IMG/VR virus record: IMGVR_UViG_3300032006_000086
Coordinates: 1-23,670 of that record
DNA: 23,670 nucleotides
Reading direction: 5' to 3' (one strand)
DNA from: a virus
Below, piece after piece: positions 10,973-23,670 of the stretch. The notes beneath the pieces are model-generated. The model was not told the DNA's origin. It made no database searches and saw only the letters and a list, made by a program, of their open reading frames with translations. Every line of letters starts with the position of its first letter. The first letter of the stretch is position 1. The position numbers were made by a program, and so were the translations under genes.

Positions 10973-13900
10973 ATGTCAGAATTCCCTACTACAGGCTCTC
11001 TCTTTGAAGAAAACCTTAAGAACTCCAGCCCGAATCCTGAAGGAGTAGCAGAGGGTAGCTCAATAATCCCCACAGCGTCTTATAGCAATACAGCTAAAGG
11101 AAGCCCTTTGCAGGGGGTAAACGCAGAAAAAAGCGAAGAGCCCCTTGCTTCTGCTGGCTTAGCTGTTCCTCCTACCGAAGAACGCGCAGATAAAACTCAG
11201 AGCCCAAGCACTGAAGACGACAAAATTGGTCTTGGGGATGTTGCAGGAGATATGGGCCTATTTGCGCTGAGAGGTGTGGAGGGCTTTGCTGAGAGTGTTG
11301 CTGGTTTGTTTGGTTCTAAGTGGGACAGAGAAGACTGGAGCGTCTTTGGGAAATCAAAAACCGTTGTAGGGTCTTTTGGTGAAAACCTTGTTCAATTTGG
11401 AATAGGGTTAATCCCCGGCTTGGGGACCGCAGGATGGGTTTCTAAAGCCGCTAAATTGAATAAAGGAAGTAAGCTCGCCAAGAGGGCAAGTACTCTTCGT
11501 AAGGCGCGAGCGCAGAAAAGCCTCGGTCACCAAGCAGCCTTTAGCGGAAAAGTACCAGCGCCTATCGCTCCCTTGGCTAAGGGGAATAGGTCTCTTGATA
11601 TAAAAACCCTTAAGCGCTTAGCTAAGATGAAGAAGACAGCTAAGACCGCTGCTATTTGGGGTTATGCAGGTGCCGTGTCTGACTTTGTAGCATTCAAAGG
11701 GCAAGAAGCGCGCCTGTCGAATCTGCTACAGGGGATGGGTGTTGAGAATGATTTGGTTCAGTATTTAGCGTATGACCCCACACAAGATTCCAGTGAAATG
11801 GAAGAACGCCTTAAGAATGTTATTGAAGGCGGTATTGTTGGTACAGCTGTTGGTGGTGTCATTGATATAGCGGGTAGAGCGGGAGCTTTTAAGTTTATTG
11901 GAAAGTCTATCGGTAAAATCAGACGCAAGAATCAGCTTGTTCACGAAGGAATGGACGAAGCTGAAGCTATCGAAAAAGCTGAAAGAGAGTTCGTAGAGGC
12001 TGTTTCAGATGACCCAGAAATGCTCCGAGAGATGGCGGATTTTGAGGCTCAGATGAAGCACGAACAGTATCTGAGAGATAACGGTGCCCTCCCGGCTCCT
12101 GCGCGTCTGGGAGGAGATGAGCTACCATTCGGAGGTAACGAGGACACGCTAGATGTCTGGTATGGTGCGGGTCAAAACAAAGAACTCAGCAACTTAGCTC
12201 CTAGACCGTTTACGTATGAAGGAAAGGAATACAAAAGCGTAGAACACGCATACCAGACGCTAAAGTCAGGGCGGTTTGATGACGCTACATACAGTAACCC
12301 TGCGTGGAATAGAGGCGGCGTTAAAATAAGAGGAAAGCTACAAGCTGACAAGGAGACTAATGTAGGCTTGATGGAGCGTCTTATTAGGGAGTCTTTCGAG
12401 CAGAATCCAGAGGCTTCTCAAGCGCTCCTTAAAACTAAAGGAAAGACTCTTACCCACCTAAGGGACAGAAGCATCTGGAGGGATAAGTTCCCCGAAGCGC
12501 TCACCAAGGTGCGCTCAGAGCTTGAAGCTAAGCAGCCTAAAGAAGCGCCTCCAGCTCGTGTTGAGGAGCCCTCAGGACCCACAATGCACTCTGGAGGAGC
12601 CAGTGGGGCTGACACAGTGTTCCAAGAGATGGCAGAGAAGGCAGGAATGAATGTTAAAGCTCATTCGTTTCGAGGACACGCTGCTGGTAACAAGCGGAGA
12701 GTGGAGCACACTCCCGAAGAGCTTAAGGAAGCCAACGAGCACCTTAAGAGAGCAAACAAGACTCTTAAGAGGAAATTCCCAGCAGGAAGCGCCTACGTCA
12801 ACAATCTCCTGAGAAGGAATTATTTTCAGGTTAAGGATGTTGACCAAGTGATTGCTGTGGGGCGGATTGAAAACGGACAGGTGCAGGGAGGAACTGCATG
12901 GGCTACCCAGATGGGCGTAGACATGGGTAAAGAAGTTCATGTGTTTGATATGAACACTAATAGCTGGCACTTCTGGGACGGCACCACTTGGGGTAAATCC
13001 GGTGAAGGAAAGAGGCCTATTTTGTCGGACAGCTTTGCTGGTATTGGCTCTAGGAATCTTTCTGATGAAGGCAAAGAAGCCATCCAGAATCTGTTCAAAG
13101 ACTCCGCCTTTATTAAGCGACGCAAAGCGGCGCACACCAGCGCCCAGTCGGCAGCTGGGAGGCAGTTGACCTCATTAGGCGAGAAGCCCCAAGAGACTTC
13201 TAGTAAGATTGTCCCTGTCAGCGACCCGGACGCTATTTCCGTCATGCGCGGCCCTCAGGGAAGGCACATGAATAACACCAAACCCGGAGAGCCGGGGTGG
13301 TTGGGGAACCCATTCAAATGGAAAGGGAACGGAGGCAAAGGAACGGTGGAAGAAGCCATCGCTAAGTTCAAGCAAGCCTTCTTGAAGCGTATTGAAGAAG
13401 ACCCAGCGTTTAAGGCTGAGCTAGAAGGAATCGTTGGGCGAAAGCTTGGTTACTACAAGCCTAAGGCTGAGAAAAGCCACGCTCAGGTTATTAAGGCGTG
13501 GTTGGACGAAGCAGGGGTAAGTAAGACTCCTAGAAGGGGGTTTAAGCCGACTAATACTTACACAGGGCTTGTGGATAAACTAAAAGAAAACCAAGTGTTT
13601 GTCTTTACCTCAAACCATAGAGGATTTCACGGAGCAGGTTCCGCAGGGTATGCCAGCTTTAATGTAAGCGGTAATAGATGGCGGGAGATGGGTTATGGTG
13701 AGCTACCTGACGGAACCCAAGGAAAATGGAATGTTAAAGGACAGGGCGAAGGTCTTCAAAAAGGAACTGAAGGAGAATCTTATGCTTTGCCTACCGTAAC
13801 AAAACCGGGCGCTAAAAAATCTATTCCAGAGGAAGAACTCGTCTCTAACATCAGGAAGATGTATGAGACAGCCCGAGCTAACCCTGAAAAAGAATTTTTA

Positions 13901-16900
13901 GTAGCTCAGAGCGCTAAAAAGGGACTCAGCGGGTGGAGCGGGGATGACATGGCTCGTATGTATCATGCGGCAGGGGAAGTCCCAGATAATGTTAAGTTTG
14001 AGCAGAGGTTTGGGGCCAAAATAGACAATCAAAGCAGGAAAGGCATTGACGAGTTCCCTGTAGGTGGTGCGGGAGGAGAAGCTCCCAAGAAACTCCCACT
14101 TCCTAAGATAAAGGGTGAGGATGCTACCGTGGACATGGTGGACGACCTAAGCGAGGCAGAACTTAATGAGTTCTTGTCTGAGTTTGGTGACCTAGATATC
14201 CCTAGCGTTGCCGGGGCGTTATCGACCAAGAGGCAGATAGCCAAAGACATTATCGAAGCTGGAGAGCACACGGGAGAGGTCATTGCGGACATCGAAGGCT
14301 TAGTAACTAAAGTTGTGAGCGAAGCTGGTGACGACTTCCTGACAGGAACAGGAGACCAAGCAATTCTTGCAGGAAGAAAGCTTCTTTCTGGGGTGCATAG
14401 TAATGAAGGACTAGTTGCGTTAGTTCGTGTTCTTGCGCGTAAAGCGGTCGAGAAACGCCATGATTTGCATGGCCCTTCTAGAAATGCGGAAGAAACATTC
14501 GACAGGGTGGAGAAGTCTCTTGTCGATAAAGACCACTGGGATGTCTTTGACAGGGACCTAGTTCACCAACGCCTAGAGCAGGCTAGAGGTAACGTAGACG
14601 CTTTGGAAAGAATCTATGCGGAACAAGACATGATTCACAAGCTCTACACTACTTTAGCTGAAGAGGTTGGAGAGTCGGTTAAGAGAGCCGAGAAAGCGAA
14701 GAAGACAAAGGGCACCGTCACTTTTGATATCATGGAAGACGGGGTGGCCAAGCAGGCGGTATACGGTTACGAGGAGTTGCTTACTGAGGTGTATTCAAAC
14801 CTCGATAAGTTCTTGGCTGTTAAAGAACTGTGGGCTGAGTACGGAACCCACCTTTCGCTGGGGATGCTTCAACGCAAGTTCATCTACGAAGGCACAGGAA
14901 CAAGGGGCATAACTCGTAGAAAAGACTTAGGGTTCAGGCCCAAGATGAAAGGTGTAGACTATGACCAGTCTATGGAAAGGAGGGCTTATATGCAGGGAGT
15001 TAGAGGGTCCAGAAGCCAACGTCAATTCCTAGCGGAACTCAGACAGGCGACTAACGCCTCAGACCTAGAGGCTGCTTTAGGTAAAATAGGTAAAGACTCT
15101 AGAAACGGGTTCGCCAGAACTATGGGTTGGTATCTCAACGCTTTGCTCAGTAACCCTGTGACTTGGGGCGTTAACATGGTTGGAAGCGCTATTATGAAAG
15201 GCTTTAGAGACTTTGAGGTCATTGCGGGAAGTATGGCGCAGTTCGCGCATACTGGTAATGCTGACCTGCTAAGAACTCGTATTAAAGCCATCTACGACAT
15301 GGAGTCTTTTATGGAGGCATGGAAGTATGCCGCTATTAGCCTTAAAGAAGGAGAGCCAAGAAGTATTGCTGGGCACACCGCTTATTCAGACAACAGGTTT
15401 GAAGATATGAAATCAGGGTGGCACTTCGGAGACGGAGATGACCCCCTGACTAGGGCCGGTAATTGGTTTGGTAATCTTGTATCAGGACCTTCTAGAGTCC
15501 TCATGGCTGGTGATGAGTTCTTTAAGCAGTGGAACTACCGCTCATACGTAAAGGCAGATTTAGCTATGGAGGCGCACAGGAGAGGCATAAAGGACCCGTA
15601 CGAAATAGCCTCTTACGTTAGAGACTCCTTTGAATCACACATGACCAAAGAAGGGCGCATAGCCAATGAGGCCAATGTTTATAAAGAAGCCGCGCAAGCA
15701 GCGGACGACAACGGGCTTAGGTTTGGAAAAAGAGCCTCCTTTATTGACGAATACATGGATGAGCACTTTTACGAAAACAACCTGAGACTTGATGACGGCT
15801 TTGTCTACCGGACTACAGAGCAGAGAGACTTACTAGTTAACAGAGCCACCGACTGGGCTTTGGTTAACACTTTCACAAACAATCCTTCTCATCCATTTGC
15901 TAGGTGGGTTTCTAAAACAGCTATGGCGCACCCTTGGCTTTCGTTCGCTATTCCCTTTGTTAGAACCCCGACAAATATCCTTACGTTCGCCATGAGCAGG
16001 GTAATCCCGCTACCCGGATGGGGCAAAGCACATCAAGCATTTGATGTTCAGGATGTGCTGGATAAAAGAGGCAGGCCCGGCGGCTATGGCGCTTTGAGTC
16101 TTAATCCTAACAGATTTACGGTAGGCAGTGAGCAGGCGATAATGAACACTAATCGTTACGCCAAAGCCGCAAGAGGACAAGACACCGGGATGGAGCTTCC
16201 AGCGGACGCTAGGGAAAGATACGAAAATTCAGAGTGGAACGAACCTGTAGTGAAAAGGGAAGAAATACCTTTAAAGAAGGCAGACGGAAGACATCAAGCT
16301 CCCGCTTTCATTAGATATGACGAAGGACCTACTGGAACAATCCACATAGACGAAGCTAGAATCAAAGAGATGTATGACCGTAAAGCTTGGAGAGCGGATG
16401 GTCCTAACGTGGTTCCGGGGGTAAAGCCCCTAGATGACAAGCACTTCAAAACCCCTGAAGATTTTGAAAACTTTGTTATGGAGCACGAAAAAGCGCATCA
16501 GTATCTCAGGCAAAGAAAGCGCGAAAACGAATCAAAGGGTGACTATGAAAACAGAGTAAACCAAGAAGCTTTGAAGCGGCTTGAGTTTAAGAAAAATCAC
16601 GGCTCTGGCTGGCAAAAGCAGCTAAAAGAGCAATACGGTGATATGCCGTTTTCTGAGGCTATGGCGAAAGAGCACCTACACGCGCAAGCGCAAGCTGGTG
16701 CGGTAGCCGCAGCTGAGCACCACGGAAGACTGACTACCGCTGCTATGATGACGGCAAGTTCGTTGTACACTATAGAGCTTATTCAGGAACGTATTACAGG
16801 TTCCCCACCAGAATCTAGAGCTGCTAAAGCTGCGTGGGATGCTGCTGGAAAGAGGCCTTGGTCTATTCTAGTTGGCGAAGGAGAAGACGCTAAATGGGTT

Positions 16901-17806
16901 AGCTACCAAAGAATGGACCCGTTTGCTACCATTATAGGTATATTTGCTGATATCGTACACATGACTCCTGCTTTAGCGGGAGAAGACGAAGCGATGGGCA
17001 TGATTGCGACTGACTCAGAGATAGAAGACGGTATGCAGGCTATGTCTAAGGTAGCCGCAATCATCTCAATGACATTCACCAATAACATCACTAACGGGTC
17101 TTATGTAGAGGGGCTTTACGAAACTATGGAAACTTTCAAGGACCTTACTAAGGCCCCTGAGTTTCTAGCGAAAATCGCATCTGGGTTCGTTCCTACGGGG
17201 CTTACTTGGACAGAAAACCTAGTAGAAAAAGACCCTCAAATTTATGAGGCTCGTAAGTTGCTAGACCATGTGATGAAGAAAGTCCCAACCTATATGCGCC
17301 CAGATATGCCTGAGACGCCTGTGACGTCGGCTAGGCTGGAACCAAGAAGGAACTGGCTGGGAGAAAAGATAAAGAAGACAGGACCGTTCCTTCCTTCTTT
17401 TATTGGTCTTGGTCAGCAAGTTCCCTCTTCAACAGACCCTGTTGACTTAGAGCTTCTTTCTATAGGTAAAGGGTTCTTACAGAGACCCTCTATATGGAGC
17501 GGCGTGTTGGACACTAAGAAGTTCAGAAACACTAACGGAGGTCAGTCAGCGTACGACAGGCATCAAGAGCTGCTTTCTACTATGAATCTTGGAGGGCGAA
17601 CTGCTAGGCAGTCTATTAGGGCGTTAATTGAGAGCCCTAAATACCAAGCTCTTCCCCCGGCTACAGACATGACTATTGGGAAGACGCATCCAAGACAGAG
17701 AGCTATAGCTAAAATACTTAATTTCTACTCAGACCACGCTAAAAACCAAGTGATGGAAGAGTACCCGGAATTGAGACAGGCTTATTACCAAACCTTACAA
17801 CAATAA
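10973..17806 (+). CDS. Internal virion protein D (T7 gp16-like) polyvalent protein with NADAR, SLOG-like, DUF4326, A1S_2505-like and HExxH domains
   Basis: This 2277-aa core protein is far longer than T7 gp16 (1318 aa). Residues 1-80 look disordered. About 85-330 is an Ala/Gly-rich region with GxxxG-type hydrophobic segments (LVQFGIGLIPGLGTAGWV; IEGGIVGTAVGGV). Residues ~390-520 are NADAR-like (LSNLAPRPF; SVEHAYQ at 422-428). Residues ~535-710 are a SLOG/DprA-like Rossmann domain (SGGASGAD 540-547, VQGGTAW from 637, FAGIGSRNL 688-696). Residues ~753-850 are DUF4326-like (WLGNPF 776-781), and ~873-1013 A1S_2505-like (VFTSNHRGFHGAG). The conserved core-protein region follows (~1350-1700: LLSNPVTWGVNMVGS, LMAGDEFFKQWNYR, FVRTPTNIL). 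HEKAH lies at 1838-1842, with Glu1865 in NRVNQEAL as a possible third zinc ligand. The C-terminus has YQRMDPFATIIGIFADI. No N-terminal lytic transglycosylase motif is seen. By analogy with T7 it would be ejected into the host. Confidence 0.88.
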   Translation: MSEFPTTGSLFEENLKNSSPNPEGVAEGSSIIPTASYSNTAKGSPLQGVNAEKSEEPLASAGLAVPPTEERADKTQSPSTEDDKIGLGDVAGDMGLFALRGVEGFAESVAGLFGSKWDREDWSVFGKSKTVVGSFGENLVQFGIGLIPGLGTAGWVSKAAKLNKGSKLAKRASTLRKARAQKSLGHQAAFSGKVPAPIAPLAKGNRSLDIKTLKRLAKMKKTAKTAAIWGYAGAVSDFVAFKGQEARLSNLLQGMGVENDLVQYLAYDPTQDSSEMEERLKNVIEGGIVGTAVGGVIDIAGRAGAFKFIGKSIGKIRRKNQLVHEGMDEAEAIEKAEREFVEAVSDDPEMLREMADFEAQMKHEQYLRDNGALPAPARLGGDELPFGGNEDTLDVWYGAGQNKELSNLAPRPFTYEGKEYKSVEHAYQTLKSGRFDDATYSNPAWNRGGVKIRGKLQADKETNVGLMERLIRESFEQNPEASQALLKTKGKTLTHLRDRSIWRDKFPEALTKVRSELEAKQPKEAPPARVEEPSGPTMHSGGASGADTVFQEMAEKAGMNVKAHSFRGHAAGNKRRVEHTPEELKEANEHLKRANKTLKRKFPAGSAYVNNLLRRNYFQVKDVDQVIAVGRIENGQVQGGTAWATQMGVDMGKEVHVFDMNTNSWHFWDGTTWGKSGEGKRPILSDSFAGIGSRNLSDEGKEAIQNLFKDSAFIKRRKAAHTSAQSAAGRQLTSLGEKPQETSSKIVPVSDPDAISVMRGPQGRHMNNTKPGEPGWLGNPFKWKGNGGKGTVEEAIAKFKQAFLKRIEEDPAFKAELEGIVGRKLGYYKPKAEKSHAQVIKAWLDEAGVSKTPRRGFKPTNTYTGLVDKLKENQVFVFTSNHRGFHGAGSAGYASFNVSGNRWREMGYGELPDGTQGKWNVKGQGEGLQKGTEGESYALPTVTKPGAKKSIPEEELVSNIRKMYETARANPEKEFLVAQSAKKGLSGWSGDDMARMYHAAGEVPDNVKFEQRFGAKIDNQSRKGIDEFPVGGAGGEAPKKLPLPKIKGEDATVDMVDDLSEAELNEFLSEFGDLDIPSVAGALSTKRQIAKDIIEAGEHTGEVIADIEGLVTKVVSEAGDDFLTGTGDQAILAGRKLLSGVHSNEGLVALVRVLARKAVEKRHDLHGPSRNAEETFDRVEKSLVDKDHWDVFDRDLVHQRLEQARGNVDALERIYAEQDMIHKLYTTLAEEVGESVKRAEKAKKTKGTVTFDIMEDGVAKQAVYGYEELLTEVYSNLDKFLAVKELWAEYGTHLSLGMLQRKFIYEGTGTRGITRRKDLGFRPKMKGVDYDQSMERRAYMQGVRGSRSQRQFLAELRQATNASDLEAALGKIGKDSRNGFARTMGWYLNALLSNPVTWGVNMVGSAIMKGFRDFEVIAGSMAQFAHTGNADLLRTRIKAIYDMESFMEAWKYAAISLKEGEPRSIAGHTAYSDNRFEDMKSGWHFGDGDDPLTRAGNWFGNLVSGPSRVLMAGDEFFKQWNYRSYVKADLAMEAHRRGIKDPYEIASYVRDSFESHMTKEGRIANEANVYKEAAQAADDNGLRFGKRASFIDEYMDEHFYENNLRLDDGFVYRTTEQRDLLVNRATDWALVNTFTNNPSHPFARWVSKTAMAHPWLSFAIPFVRTPTNILTFAMSRVIPLPGWGKAHQAFDVQDVLDKRGRPGGYGALSLNPNRFTVGSEQAIMNTNRYAKAARGQDTGMELPADARERYENSEWNEPVVKREEIPLKKADGRHQAPAFIRYDEGPTGTIHIDEARIKEMYDRKAWRADGPNVVPGVKPLDDKHFKTPEDFENFVMEHEKAHQYLRQRKRENESKGDYENRVNQEALKRLEFKKNHGSGWQKQLKEQYGDMPFSEAMAKEHLHAQAQAGAVAAAEHHGRLTTAAMMTASSLYTIELIQERITGSPPESRAAKAAWDAAGKRPWSILVGEGEDAKWVSYQRMDPFATIIGIFADIVHMTPALAGEDEAMGMIATDSEIEDGMQAMSKVAAIISMTFTNNITNGSYVEGLYETMETFKDLTKAPEFLAKIASGFVPTGLTWTENLVEKDPQIYEARKLLDHVMKKVPTYMRPDMPETPVTSARLEPRRNWLGEKIKKTGPFLPSFIGLGQQVPSSTDPVDLELLSIGKGFLQRPSIWSGVLDTKKFRNTNGGQSAYDRHQELLSTMNLGGRTARQSIRALIESPKYQALPPATDMTIGKTHPRQRAIAKILNFYSDHAKNQVMEEYPELRQAYYQTLQQ

Positions 17807-19244: not shown

Positions 19245-19453
19245 ACAACCAAGAGGAACGTCTTAAAGACCTCCAGAGCCTACTCATTAACGAGTTTATC
19301 TCTCGTATTGAGTCAGGAGAGGCAGCTCCAAGTGACTTGAACGCCGCCAGACAGCTTTTGAAGGACAATGGAATCCATGCGGGTCTGTCGAAGGACAACC
19401 CGATGGAGAATCTTGTGAAAATCTTACCTTTCGACGAGGCAGCAAATGGCTAA
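19199..19453 (+). CDS. Small terminase subunit (T7 gp18-like)
   Basis: An 84-aa protein, near T7 gp18 in length (89 aa). The small terminase recognises concatemeric DNA and regulates the motor. A charged helix (KEINNQEERLKDLQSLL) is followed by FISRIESGEAAPSDLNAARQLLKDNGI, the pattern of short T7-type TerS proteins (helix, GEA turn, DLN helix, LLKDNGI). The ATG at 19199 has AGGGG 10 bases upstream and overlaps the holin by 46 bases. An ATG at 19229 would give 74 aa with less overlap but only a weak RBS. The gene lies between holin and large terminase, overlapping the HNH gene by 8 bases. Confidence 0.82.
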   Translation: MLFTIKDLQRMEKEINNQEERLKDLQSLLINEFISRIESGEAAPSDLNAARQLLKDNGIHAGLSKDNPMENLVKILPFDEAANG

Positions 19454-19676
19454 GAAAAGAAATTACAGAAGAGAGTACGACACTTACCACAAGCGTAAGC
19501 GCCAAAAGAAAAGGCGCGCTGGCCGCAATAAGGCGAGACGCATGATGATAAAAAAGAAGGGTAAGAGTAAGCTGAAGGGCAAGGATGTTCACCACAAGGA
19601 CCGCAACCCGAGGAATAACAAACGCTCTAACCTGAGGATTCAGAGTAAGAAGAAAAACAGGGGAAACAACAAGTAA
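19446..19676 (+). CDS. Small HNH-endonuclease-like protein beside the terminase
   Basis: A 76-aa, extremely basic protein. The N-terminal ~42 residues are mostly Arg and Lys. The C-terminal part carries an HNH-like signature: DVHHKDRNPRNNKRSNL starting at Asp47, with His49/His50, Asn54 and Asn57/58. The zinc-binding cysteines of many HNH proteins are absent. Small HNH proteins adjacent to terminase genes are common in tailed phages, and in some systems they assist DNA cleavage during packaging. The start has GAGG about 8 bases upstream and overlaps TerS by 8 bases, so it is probably made together with the packaging proteins. It could be a packaging accessory nuclease, a homing-type remnant, or only a DNA-binding protein. 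Confidence 0.75.
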   Translation: MAKKRNYRREYDTYHKRKRQKKRRAGRNKARRMMIKKKGKSKLKGKDVHHKDRNPRNNKRSNLRIQSKKKNRGNNK

Positions 19677-19680
19677 ACCT

Positions 19681-21342
19681 ATGGAAGTCCCAGATAAGCT
19701 GAAAGACTTTCGCAATTTTCTATACATAGTATGGAAAGAGCTTAACCTACCAGACCCAACTACTATTCAATATGAAATCGCTGATTACATGCAAAAAGGA
19801 GATAGACGAGCTATTATCGAAGGCTTTAGGGGAGTCGGTAAAAGTTGGATATGCTCTGCATTCGTTGTCCACCAGCTCTTGCTCGACCCAAGAAGAAACA
19901 TCCTTGTTGTCTCTGCGTCAAAAACAAGAGCAGACGATTTCAGCACTTTTACACTTAGACTCATCCATGAGTTGCCTCTTCTCGCTCATTTGCGACCAAG
20001 TGAAAAACAAAGATTCTCTAAAATCAGCTTTGACGTCGGACCCGCGCCAGCCTCCCACGCCCCCTCCGTCAAATCCTTGGGAGTCACGTCTCAACTGACG
20101 GGCTCACGGGCTGACATCATCGTCGCAGACGACATTGAGGTGGTGGGCAATAGCGCCACCCAAGGGATGCGCGACAAGCTTGGCGAACAGGTCAAGGAGT
20201 TCGACGCAATCATCAAGCCCGATACTGACTCCAAGATATTGTTCCTTGGAACACCACAGTGCGAGGACACAATCTACAACAAGCTCACTGAGCGGGGATA
20301 CAAAAAACGCATTTGGCCTGCTAAATACATCACAGAAAAGGTCAATGAGACTGGGTATGACGGGTGTGTTAGTGAGTTGTGTGTTGATGAGAGCAGGGTA
20401 GGGGCCACCACAGAGCCCCTGAGGTTTTCTGACATCGACCTAGCGGAGCGAGAAGCGTCCTACGGGCGCACCGGGTTCGCCATGCAGTTCATGCTGGATA
20501 CCCGCCTGAGCGACATCGAGAGGTTCCCGCTGAAGACCAGCGACCTCATAGTGATGTCTGTGGACCCCGAGGTGGCTCCTGAGAAGCTTGTGTGGGCCAG
20601 AGACCCTAAACTGGAGTGGGACTCCTCTGTGCCCAATGTGGCGCTCTCAGGGGACAGATTCTACCGCCCTATGGAAGTCCTTGGGGACTACATCCCATAC
20701 ACAGGCTCTGTGATGGCTATCGACCCCTCAGGACGGGGCAAGGATGAGACCGGATACGCCATCGTCAAGATGCTCAATGGATACCTCTACGTGGTAGATG
20801 CCGGGGGTCTCCAAGGCGGATATAGCGACGAGGTCCTCAAGGCCCTTTCAATAAAGGCCAAACAACAGAAAGTGAACTTCATCGTGGTCGAAAGTAACTT
20901 CGGGGACGGGATGTTCGTGGAGCTTTTCAAGCCCATCCTTACCAAGATTCACCCATGCACCATCGAGGAAGTCAGACACAACATCCAGAAAGAGAAAAGA
21001 ATCATCGATACCCTAGAACCCGTGATGAACCAGCACAGGCTGGTGGTTGACCCGAAAGTCATACAACATGACTATGAAAGCGCACAGACGTATCCGCTAG
21101 AATCACAGCTGAAATACCAGCTAATCTACCAGATGTCCCGCTTAACGAACCAAAGAGGGGCCATTACGCAGGATGACCGCCTTGATGCACTCAGTATGGC
21201 GGTCGCATATTGGACAGAACAGATGGCTCAGGACGCTGATAAGCGCATGAATGAGCGTAAAGTAGACCTTCTAGACGAGGAATTAAGGCGATTTGAGGAG
21301 TCCTACACGGGTAAATCAAGCCTACAAACCACTTGGATGTGA
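19681..21342 (+). CDS. Large terminase subunit, ATPase and nuclease (T7 gp19-like)
   Basis: The 553-aa packaging motor is near T7 gp19 in length (586 aa). Motifs in order are Walker A GFRGVGKSW at residues 48-56 (Lys54) and Walker B IIVADD with Asp150/Asp151. The C-terminal RNase H-like nuclease has AIDPSGRGKDETGYA with Asp348, VVESNFGDG with Glu404, and QDDRLDAL with Asp498/Asp502. The ATPase translocates DNA into the procapsid and the nuclease cuts concatemers at genome ends. It lies at the end of the late region, as in T7. A phage using this terminase type would be expected to have direct terminal repeats; the window alone does not show them. Confidence 0.95.
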   Translation: MEVPDKLKDFRNFLYIVWKELNLPDPTTIQYEIADYMQKGDRRAIIEGFRGVGKSWICSAFVVHQLLLDPRRNILVVSASKTRADDFSTFTLRLIHELPLLAHLRPSEKQRFSKISFDVGPAPASHAPSVKSLGVTSQLTGSRADIIVADDIEVVGNSATQGMRDKLGEQVKEFDAIIKPDTDSKILFLGTPQCEDTIYNKLTERGYKKRIWPAKYITEKVNETGYDGCVSELCVDESRVGATTEPLRFSDIDLAEREASYGRTGFAMQFMLDTRLSDIERFPLKTSDLIVMSVDPEVAPEKLVWARDPKLEWDSSVPNVALSGDRFYRPMEVLGDYIPYTGSVMAIDPSGRGKDETGYAIVKMLNGYLYVVDAGGLQGGYSDEVLKALSIKAKQQKVNFIVVESNFGDGMFVELFKPILTKIHPCTIEEVRHNIQKEKRIIDTLEPVMNQHRLVVDPKVIQHDYESAQTYPLESQLKYQLIYQMSRLTNQRGAITQDDRLDALSMAVAYWTEQMAQDADKRMNERKVDLLDEELRRFEESYTGKSSLQTTWM

Positions 21343-22019: not shown

Positions 22020-22208
22020 GTGAAACCAATGGGCTCTAAAAGAGGTAAATACGACAAAGGACGAGACCGAACTAACAGGAAACCCGACTACCTACGTGGT
22101 CTCTCCTCTTCGGTCAACAAAGCGTGTGACGACTGGCTCAGGAAAAAGGGACTAAAAGCTCTTAGCTGGAAAGAGCAACTCAAAGGGAAGCAAAATGAAG
22201 GTCATTGA
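22020..22208 (+). CDS. Small basic protein of unknown function
   Basis: A 62-aa, Lys/Arg-rich soluble protein beginning MKPMGSKRGKYDKGRDR. It has a central SSVNKACDDWLRKKGLKAL helix and a charged tail. I do not recognise a family. Start choice: GTG at 22020 has GAGGGG 11 bases upstream; the ATG at 22029 (59 aa) lies too far from that site. It overlaps the next small gene by 14 bases, so the two are probably translated together. The position after the terminase region corresponds to where T7 has its small gene 19.5. Confidence 0.55.
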   Translation: MKPMGSKRGKYDKGRDRTNRKPDYLRGLSSSVNKACDDWLRKKGLKALSWKEQLKGKQNEGH

Positions 22209-22362
22209 TGTCTCAAAATACTGGGGTCAAATACAGACCATCAGCAAAAGGGCTGTTATCAAGAGCACCTTGGAGAAGCTCTCTGAACACCTAGAGGGAG
22301 ATGAGAAAGCTACAGGCTTGCTCAAGGAACTCAGGGCCCTTTGTTTAGGTGAAAATATCTGA
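22195..22362 (+). CDS. 55-aa protein of unknown function
   Basis: The ATG at 22195 has a good ribosome binding site (AAGGGAAG a few bases upstream) and lies within the end of the preceding gene in another frame. The 55-aa product is soluble and mostly helical, with a hydrophobic/charged pattern in KSTLEKLSEHLEGDEKATG and LLKELRALCLG. It has no recognised motif. RBS and overlap make it a credible gene; it is the last one before the non-coding region. Confidence 0.6.
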   Translation: MKVIDVSKYWGQIQTISKRAVIKSTLEKLSEHLEGDEKATGLLKELRALCLGENI

Positions 22363-22502
22363 GAGGGTAACGCTCTAGCGTGATTAGGGGCCGCCCCCCA
22401 TACCCCCCGTCCGCTGCCGGAATCCACCTCGCTCTCCTCGCTCCTCCGCGCCAGACCGTAGGCATTACTTGCCTCCTCCGCGCTGGGACGCACAGGGACC
22501 GC

Positions 22503-22551
22503 CCAATGCGCGCCCTTGGACGGGCTTAAAGTGGCGCATTGGAAGAGCCCG
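22503..22551 (+). ncRNA. Possible H-type pseudoknot
   Basis: A perfect 9-bp helix joins CCAATGCGC (22503-22511) and GCGCATTGG (22534-22542). CGGGCT in its loop (22521-22526) can pair with AGCCCG just outside (22546-22551), giving an H-type pseudoknot with connecting loops of 9, 7 and 3 bases. An alternative local pairing inside the loop (GCCC 22512-22515 with GGGC 22522-22525) would compete with the second helix. The 3-base loop is tight for a 9-bp helix, so the two helices might alternate instead. Confidence 0.45.
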
Positions 22552-22768
22552 TTGCCTCTCCTAAGCGCAGCCTTGGGGTGGTTCGCGTGTGATTGATTGT
22601 GCTGGCGTTTTTTACTATCACGCACCTAGATACCTCTGGGGCCTTCAGCCGGACGCTTGCTCAGCGGGAGCCAAGGAATGTCCTTGGATGCCTTTGTCTT
22701 GAGTCCGTGTTGCGCTGCCGTGTGGCCCAGCCACCCGGAGTCGCACAACAAGTCCACAAGACGGGCTC

Positions 22769-22789
22769 AGTGGATGCAGTAGCTCCACT
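22769..22789 (+). repeat. Hairpin with repeated 13-base core, copy 1
   Basis: The core GATGCAGTAGCTC (22773-22785) sits between AGTG and CACT, forming a 6-bp stem (GA/TC pairs included) with loop TGCAGTAGC. The identical core recurs at 23340-23352 between different but equally complementary flanks. The loop contains the palindrome TGCA, which could allow loop-loop pairing. Confidence 0.65.
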
Positions 22790-22805
22790 AAGCAGCCAGT
22801 GAGGC

Positions 22806-22866
22806 CTCCAGCCGGGTGCGACTTGCGACACGCTTCGCGCAAGGGAGAAGGCGCTGGGGTTTTTTT
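22806..22866 (+). terminator. Terminator-like stem with T-tract
   Basis: CTCCAGC (22806-22812) pairs with GCTGGGG (22853-22859), 7 bp with one wobble, around a 40-base loop that contains a CTTGCG/CGCAAG hairpin. Seven T follow at 22860-22866. The large loop makes it less typical than the capsid terminator. It could end transcription from the late operon or an upstream non-coding RNA. Confidence 0.4.
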
Positions 22867-23048
22867 CTGCTGCTGGTTTCCTCATTGGGATTCACTGCGT
22901 TCACCCACACATGGCGACAAGGGCAAGGCGTCAGGTCCAACAACTCCGTCGCTGCGCTCCTTCAACAAATTCCTCATAAGCAAATTGGCGGTCATGCCAA
23001 TTCACTTATTTCCTCATTTCTTGGAGCTTGTTGGCTGACACTCTCCCA

Positions 23049-23100
23049 TATTTTTGGTTGTTGTAGTTAGCGCTACGCGGCTATTGATGAATCAAAAATA
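23049..23100 (+). repeat. Structured element A (helix plus inner hairpin with bulged A)
   Basis: The outer helix pairs 23049-23059 (TATTTTTGGTT) with 23090-23100 (AATCAAAAATA), 11 bp with one G-U. The inner hairpin is TAGTT, bulged A at 23069, GCG, loop CTA, CGC, GGCTA (23064-23083). Element B repeats the same design with different bases. Confidence 0.65.
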
Positions 23101-23178
23101 GGGGGCCCGACCCTTGCGCCCCGTCCCAACTCTGTTGCCCCTTTTTGTCCGTCTCATGCCCCACTTAGGAGTCTAATC

Positions 23179-23270
23179 GAGCAGCAGTGTAACCGTCGTT
23201 TTTTTGCCTGTGTAGTAGTTAGGCGCTGCGCGCCGACTATCATTAGGCAAAAATAACTTGGTGGCTGCTC
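23179..23270 (+). repeat. Structured element B (same design as element A, longer closing stem)
   Basis: GAGCAGC (23179-23185) pairs with GCTGCTC (23264-23270), and ACC/GGT adds three pairs inside. The T/A-rich helix is TTTTTGCCT (23201-23209) with AGGCAAAAA (23245-23253). The inner hairpin is TAGTT, bulged A at 23221, GGCGC, loop TGC, GCGCC, GACTA (23216-23239). It matches element A in arrangement, including the bulged A. Confidence 0.65.
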
Positions 23271-23278
23271 TCAGCAGA

Positions 23279-23451
23279 GTGTCGCTTTTTGAAGGCTCTA
23301 TGAAGCACAGCTTAACGCGCTTGATGCAGAAAGTACACAGATGCAGTAGCTCTGTGTTCTTTCCGCCCAGCTAAAAGATGTCTCGCGACAAATCTTTTAT
23401 CTTACAAGCGCTACTGTGCTTCATGTACGAGCCTACAAAAATGGGCGACAC
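23279..23451 (+). ncRNA. Three-way-junction RNA domain
   Basis: Five stacked helical segments close the domain: GTGTCGC/GCGACAC (23279-23285 with 23445-23451), TTTTTG/CAAAAA (23286-23291 with 23436-23441), AGGCTC/GAGCCT (23293-23298 with 23429-23434), an 11-bp segment (23300-23310 with 23414-23424), and GCGCTTG/CAAGCGC (23317-23323 with 23405-23411). That is 37 pairs in total. Two hairpins branch from it: 23329-23340 with 23352-23363 (12 positions, one T-T mismatch), which carries core copy 2, and TAAAAGA/TCTTTTA plus TGTC/GACA with loop TCGC (23372-23399). It lies inside the 14-bp helix 23151-23164/23459-23472. Confidence 0.7.
23335..23357 (+). repeat. Hairpin with repeated 13-base core, copy 2
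   Basis: The core GATGCAGTAGCTC (23340-23352) sits between ACACA and TGTGT, giving a 7-bp stem with loop TGCAGTAGC. The core is identical to that at 22773-22785 while the flanking stem differs and remains paired, so the hairpin rather than the flank sequence is kept. Confidence 0.7.
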
Positions 23452-23518
23452 CTGTGGGGTGGGGCATGAGACAGGGAGGGGGCAATCCGTTGGGACTTAT
23501 GTGTAGGGTGGGAAACCT

Positions 23519-23670
23519 ATGCATCCGACTGATACATACCAAACGACAGTCTGCCCCTATTGCGGGAGCAAGACAGAGCCCGTAGGAACAACTCCAACCC
23601 TCCGCACGTTCATGGCGTGTGCCTCTATGAGTCGAGAGACTATCTTCGACTACCAACTATCATACTTAGC
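23519..23670 (+). CDS. 5' end of a small CPxC zinc-binding protein (partial)
   Basis: The frame is open from ATG 23519 to the window edge, 50 codons. It begins MHPTDTYQTT and has a CPYCG zinc-knuckle at residues 12-16, followed by GSKTEPVG. One further Cys at residue 35 (MACAS) is visible so far. An AGGGTGGG sequence 7-14 bases before the ATG can serve as RBS, but it is also the right arm of the outermost helix of the upstream structured region. Proteins with CPxCG starts are frequent among small early phage proteins. Function cannot be assigned; the rest lies outside the window. Confidence 0.5.
   Translation, partial: MHPTDTYQTTVCPYCGSKTEPVGTTPTLRTFMACASMSRETIFDYQLSYL

Follow-up and report, generated by a model that had tools for sequence, protein, structure and literature searches.

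Paired double-decker hairpins predicted in a structured non-coding region of a T7-like marine phage

In phages, the first events in the infected cell are determined by the beginning of the early region, and in T7-like genomes a terminal repeat is located between the terminase and the early genes. In T7, the early mRNA is processed by RNase III at several hairpins, each about 60 nt long, which are placed between genes. The virion RNA polymerase of N4 uses hairpin promoters. The GOLLD and ROOL RNAs are usually, but not always, associated with tRNA genes. Both are described as large, non-coding and highly structured RNAs of phages and prophages, with unknown function (PMC12286853), and the RNase III substrate R1.1 is described as being cut at a single bond into products of 47 and 13 nt (PMC4858673). 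Among the papers listed by literature searches, none dealt with a region such as the one addressed here. Like GOLLD and ROOL, this region is large, non-coding, highly structured and located in a phage; unlike them, it has no Rfam match, the window contains no tRNA, and its relatives do not share a conserved sequence core.

The window, which is the whole stretch of DNA analysed (virus record IMGVR_UViG_3300032006_000086, 23670 bases), is by its gene content a fragment of an uncultured marine T7-like (Autographiviridae) phage. The gene set includes a Gp10A-like capsid protein, a tail tubular protein, T7_gp14 and a T7 tail fibre N-terminus, and the + strand carries all long virion genes as well as the terminase (Table 1). 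The best named relative of the terminase is AP013544 (Autographiviridae, Ayaqvirus), with 74% over 95%. Relatives were gathered by terminase, and the best 80 of 516 loci were used; PF00940, the T7-type single-subunit RNA polymerase, is present in 8 of 19 relative records. The internal virion protein shows weak matches to NADAR and DUF4326, both under the Pfam cut-off. The first early ORF has no Pfam match, and no relative was confirmed when it was used as a query of the viral contig collection (viral_contigs); its CPYCGS is zinc-ribbon-like by eye. The small ORF on the terminase side returned four contigs, all of them already known. Searches located no tRNA in the window, no sigma-70-like promoter in 22300-23670 and no terminal repeat in the fragment.

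Table 1. Coordinates of the features discussed (window positions, unless a relative is named)
Feature	Position	Strand	Remarks
Internal virion protein	10973-17806		2277 aa
Small HNH_3 endonuclease ORF	19446-19676		directly 5' of terminase
Terminase large subunit	19681-21342	+	
Last small post-terminase ORF	22195-22362		
Structured non-coding region	22363-23518	+	1156 bases; between ORF 22195-22362 and first early ORF
Conserved block 1	22360-22408	+	3' of terminase-side ORF; common to several relatives
Conserved block 2	22565-22613	+	ends GGCGTTTTTT; then ACTATCAC at 22614
GATGCAGTAGCTC hairpin tip, copy 1	22773-22785	+	stem AGTGGA/TCCACT
GATGCAGTAGCTC hairpin tip, copy 2	23340-23352	+	stem ACACAGA/TCTGTGT; L002 has an extra hairpin just 5'
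Element A, double-decker hairpin	23043-23105	+	U-rich/A-rich outer helix 23049-23059/23090-23100, another 5 bp beneath bulged A at 23048; inner stem 23063-23068/23079-23084, bulged A 23069, then GCG/CGC stem; 3-nt loop CTA, 23073-23075
Element B, design as in A	23192-23262	+	outer helix inside 23198-23210/23244-23257; inner stem 23215-23220/23235-23240, bulged A 23221, then 5-bp GGCGC/GCGCC; 3-nt loop TGC, 23227-23229
Pair changed on both sides, window vs L002	23207, 23247	+	C23207-G23247 to A-U
ACTATCAT, strand-biased 8-mer inside B 3' arm	23236-23243	+	diverged version in A
Long-range helix, 14 bp perfect	23151-23472	+	23151-23164 with 23459-23472; would close B-containing domain
Second long-range helix, 11 bp perfect	23300-23424	+	23300-23310 with 23414-23424
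First early ORF	23519-23670	+	runs off window end; contains CPYCGS
GGGTCC 5'-bulge paralogous hairpin family	L007 9013-9056, 9221-9262, 9500-9547; L009 9179-9220, 9424-9471		

The non-coding region is strongly folded, and the elements A and B represent a small portion of it. Over 22560-23500, the folding z is -9.8 on the + strand and -11.9 on the - strand (20 shuffles each), and 300-base windows reach their peak of -7.2 at 23151-23450, within the strongest stretch of about 23100-23500. In 200-base windows, coding stretches remain near background, with mean z of -0.5 to -0.9. The ORFs listed inside the region are not conserved: the nearest relative, L002 (contig IMGVR_UViG_3300020371_000413), has lost a net 17 nt at about 22888-22907. 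The L002 contig stops short of the partner sides of the 14-bp and 11-bp helices, which frame the stretch containing B or the one after it, and a pattern scan of viral_contigs for the 3' closing helix yielded 0 stretches. A blastn search with 22360-23670 against the phage collection returned nothing.

An earlier note, made from the letters of this DNA, described A and B as tandem copies of a duplicated RNA motif, each with an outer helix and an inner hairpin carrying a single bulged A, in which pairing is kept as bases change. Both elements fold in this manner as RNA on the + strand: the z is -3.5 for A, a fold matched by 1 of 200 shuffles, and -4.7 for B, matched by none of 200. The note's description holds for the bulged A (23069 and 23221), the outer helix ends (GGTT/AATC in A, GCCT/AGGC in B) and the two inner stems. 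The two copies lie on the + strand and are not adjacent, and the word tandem is loose because 152 nt and other structure separate them. Like the T7 RNase III sites, A and B are predicted, internally asymmetric hairpins roughly 60 nt long in what is, by gene order, the early region; unlike those sites, they cluster before the first early ORF instead of between genes. A short GC stem, a 3-nt loop and a possible start signal adjoining recall the N4 hairpin promoters, whereas the relatives here encode a T7-type single-subunit RNA polymerase and hairpins 5' of the candidate start signal, ACTATCAY, are not general.

The kinship of A and B was assessed in two ways. Their local alignment score is 45, against a maximum of 34 among 2000 shuffle pairs, and for A with the L002 copy of B the score is 57, compared with 42 in shuffles. 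MAFFT places the helices of A and B in different registers, as it does with the elements of two further relatives (L007 and L009); the covariance model was built from B only, with its window and L002 copies, which is stricter than a joint model of A and B. With filters off, A is the next match of this model in the window (30.8 bits, E 6.7e-5), and it is recovered at E 0.0022 across 787 kb from 91 sources, comprising the window and 90 of 220 loci. On the reverse strands B reaches 25.8 bits, as expected of a near-palindrome, and A reaches 13.2 bits. The alignment score and the model match together mark the two as related copies, and A and B are paralogous double-decker hairpins on the same strand, in line with the duplication that had been proposed.

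Beyond the window, copies of A and B are scarce. Among the best 80 of the 516 terminase-gathered loci, L002 alone has both; the shape pattern of A in viral_contigs returned one stretch, the L002 contig, and that of B returned 25, of which the same contig alone is real. A covariance scan had been suggested for finding further examples, whose lack in related phages was to count against the motif. Such examples turned up only in part: in the 91 sources the B model has no confident match other than those in the window and L002, though relatives have hairpins of similar build but different sequence at this place. An additional relative (L003) matches over the first 273 bases at 98.5%, after which the contig ends. 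L002 matches the region at 92% up to its contig end at window position 23403. Element A is identical in L002, whereas B differs at 4 of 57 positions, consisting of one compensatory pair and two unpaired positions. All 21 pairs of B are kept, with a chance probability of zero broken pairs of 0.029 (0.018 for a 60-base version of B), though a test of this kind is weak per single element and gives P of 0.12 to 0.19 in three of four. The claim that pairing is kept as bases change is thus upheld in B, by one pair and with none broken. Additionally, L002 carries a complete extra hairpin near 23335 and exchanged hairpin tips elsewhere.

A broader pair-conservation test was applied to nine non-coding comparisons, which were hand-picked from loci with alignable left ends and are not fully independent, as some loci were used twice. 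Pairs were predicted from the first sequence alone (probability >= 0.7) and judged in the second at well-aligned positions only, with random placement of the same substitutions as the null. On the + strand, 8 pairs changed on both sides were kept against 0.52 expected, 3 were kept through one-sided change via G-U against 10.2, and 14 were broken against 27.3. The corresponding counts on the - strand are 5 (0.53 expected), 10 (11.8) and 11 (29.5), while four terminase coding controls stay close to expectation with 2 (1.24), 18 (20.1) and 48 (47.1). Whole-region folds transfer poorly: the changed pairs kept are 5 of 13 from the window to L002 and 4 of 7 in reverse, and 26 of 76 from L007 to L009 and 20 of 83 in reverse. 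RNAalifold consensus structures hold 10 two-sided kept pairs among 202 for L007/L009, a count biased by the method, and 2 among 121 for the window and L002. The pair test and the poor transfer therefore support local hairpins and not global folds. Measured against the nearest relatives, the alignments suggest that the sequence changes with its pairing maintained.

Relatives without A or B present other hairpins at the same place. L007 and L009 (terminase identity 91%) have two hairpins that share an outer helix (AATAATGGG/CCCATTATT) and a 5' bulge of 6 bases but differ in their inner hairpins, the helices being compared by eye. L007 has a third hairpin in which the GGGTCC bulge motif persists, as does the inner tip, on a different outer helix, and L009 lacks the first copy of this family; a pattern scan of viral_contigs for the element found two stretches, those two contigs. 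In element D of this pair, and likewise in a long-range helix, the only two differences form one compensatory pair. In the hairpin common to L005 and L014, which lies 5' of ACTATCATT, two pairs have changed in a compensatory manner and one is broken. In front of the first early ORF, L013 and L016 carry a double-decker hairpin that is T-rich and has a 3-base loop; the B model scores it at a non-significant 21.3 bits (E 0.41). In a survey of 200-base windows on the + strand, with eight relatives picked out of the 80, the mean z is -1.8 for the window, -2.4 for L007, -2.1 for L009 and for L014, -1.7 for L005 and -1.2 for L013; weak folders are L012 and L030 (-0.5 each) and L023 (-0.85). Among outgroups, AP013544 (-0.03) and CRP-171 (-0.50) are near background and LUZ100 reaches -1.2. 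A structured left end general to Autographiviridae was rejected on the near-background values of AP013544, CRP-171, L030, L012 and L023; the strongly folded left end belongs to a small clade.

The reading that we favour, tentatively and at slightly less than an even chance, takes A and B as duplicated RNA modules within a long, structured leader of the early transcript. The sequence itself shows the hairpins, their paralogy, their position and one compensatory change in B; we infer that the region is transcribed, and that the hairpins form and act in the RNA. Such a leader would be a + strand transcript that starts where the terminase region ends and reaches into the first early gene. A and B would act on the early transcript itself, the most likely action being that double-strand-specific nucleases, RNase III for example, process or protect it. 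This step is proposed because of the analogy with T7 and its R1.1 site; a need for processing or protection would conserve the shape of a hairpin and leave most letters free. The leader reading is favoured by the gene direction, by the kept bulges, by the relation of A to the B model on the + strand, by the kept pairs of B in L002, by the folding z of the region, by the excess of two-sided kept pairs in the nine comparisons and by similarly built hairpins at the same place in L007/L009, L005/L014 and L013/L016. It is also favoured by the folding of A, which is good only as + strand RNA. Folded as RNA, the reverse complements give a z of -0.85 for A and -3.85 for B, and DNA parameters give -1.96 and -3.4, with the inner helix of A as described being absent under DNA parameters. 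The G-U pairs of A turn into A-C on the opposite strand. Against the leader reading, the - strand at least equals the + strand in folding over the whole region, and the shortage of one-sided G-U changes counts against RNA because RNA selection should tolerate G-U. The lack of a sigma-70-like promoter in 22300-23670, the poor transfer of whole-region folds, the weakness of the broken-pair test for single elements and the overlap of B with ACTATCAT also count against it. The RNA character assigned to the motif by the earlier note is favoured by the strand-specific folding and the DNA-parameter fold of A, and is left unproven by the equal folding of the - strand and the G-U deficit.

The same two observations, wobble-type changes rarer than expected and a region without strand preference, make DNA palindromes the main rival, which we consider unlikely but deserving of weight. 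The left end would accumulate hairpin-forming DNA; its arms would be kept complementary by template switching in replication (quasipalindrome correction), or the palindromes would have a DNA role in replication or packaging near a terminal repeat, and the compensatory pairs would be single mutational events instead of products of RNA selection. The excess of two-sided Watson-Crick changes with few G-U intermediates on the + strand is in agreement with this, as are the gain and loss of whole hairpins between close relatives (the extra hairpin of L002, the third element of L007) and the placement of the region between terminase and early genes. However, the strand-specific RNA folding of A speaks against palindromic DNA, arm correction would tend to remove the bulged A and the asymmetric 5' bulges, which are in fact retained, and the fragment has no located terminal repeat.

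A doubtful explanation, less probable than palindromes, is that function resides in ACTATCAY, in the 3' arm of B, which could for instance be an initiation sequence for a phage RNA polymerase; the hairpin would then be a by-product or serve as a DNA/RNA switch. In its ACTAT core the motif is similar to T7-type promoters. The three ACTATCA copies of the window (22614, 23236, 23656) are all on the + strand within the last 1.06 kb, and in four assembled contigs 36 of 36 ACTATCAY copies follow the gene direction, mostly in the early region. Across the 80 terminase-oriented loci, ACTATCA occurs 149 times with the terminase and 14 times against. In 15 records, 65 of 77 ACTATCAY copies point the same way as the terminase and 12 the opposite way, which speaks against this explanation; 11 of these 12 come from two related records (G015 and G016) where every copy opposes the genes, and two other records have no copy. 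A reversed-pattern control on the 15 records is not independent, because ACTATCA is identical when read backwards. In the pieces examined outside the group, AP013544 has 1 copy in 13.4 kb, and CRP-171 and LUZ100 have 0. A is without the motif, the flanks show no conservation at other positions, and 20 of 34 copies in three contigs lie within ORFs by a crude ORF call, unlike simple promoters. A general hairpin 5' of ACTATCAY was rejected, with only 11 of 107 distinct contexts at z < -2 and a mean of -0.5. The 8-mer may nevertheless serve as a promoter, priming or RNA signal, and, as it overlaps B in the form of ACTATCAT, selection at that site may in fact act on the 8-mer. It is dense in the early region of many loci, for example L014, L016, L023 and L048.

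That the region is a known structured RNA or an ordinary signal (GOLLD, ROOL, a group I/II intron, a tRNA-like structure or an intrinsic terminator) is most improbable: its length and structural richness recall large phage RNAs, but Rfam at gathering gave 0 matches in the window and 0 in six relatives, which excludes GOLLD and ROOL, Rfam at E up to 5 gave only two chance-level hits to other families in 22300-23670, no tRNA is present, and neither A nor B has a GC stem followed directly by a 3' T-run, the run sitting in the 5' arm.

Taken further, the leader reading would describe a marine T7-like clade with a structure-only, ornate leader RNA of roughly 1 kb, which might act early in infection as a decoy or shield against nucleases of the host or against defences that sense RNA; we regard this as speculative and improbable. 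It is equally a long shot that, in such a leader, paired double-decker hairpins, one-sided bulges and long-range closing helices are kept while nearly all letters, and entire hairpins too, are replaced at about 90% terminase identity. If hairpin shape is indeed selected and sequence free, control or shielding of early phage RNA would be missed by sequence-based family searches. The relative pairs suited to testing shape selection, and the separate strand-biased 8-mer, are now named.

Some smaller features accompany these elements. The identical 13-base tip GATGCAGTAGCTC sits on two different stems 567 bases apart; in viral_contigs the tip occurs in 95 stretches, and it was rejected as a wider signal, as the 79 newly obtained contexts look like chance or coding matches. 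The conserved blocks 1 and 2 are kept among relatives whose other left-end sequence cannot be aligned, and are possibly packaging or terminal-repeat signals. Block 1 contains a small hairpin and C-runs.
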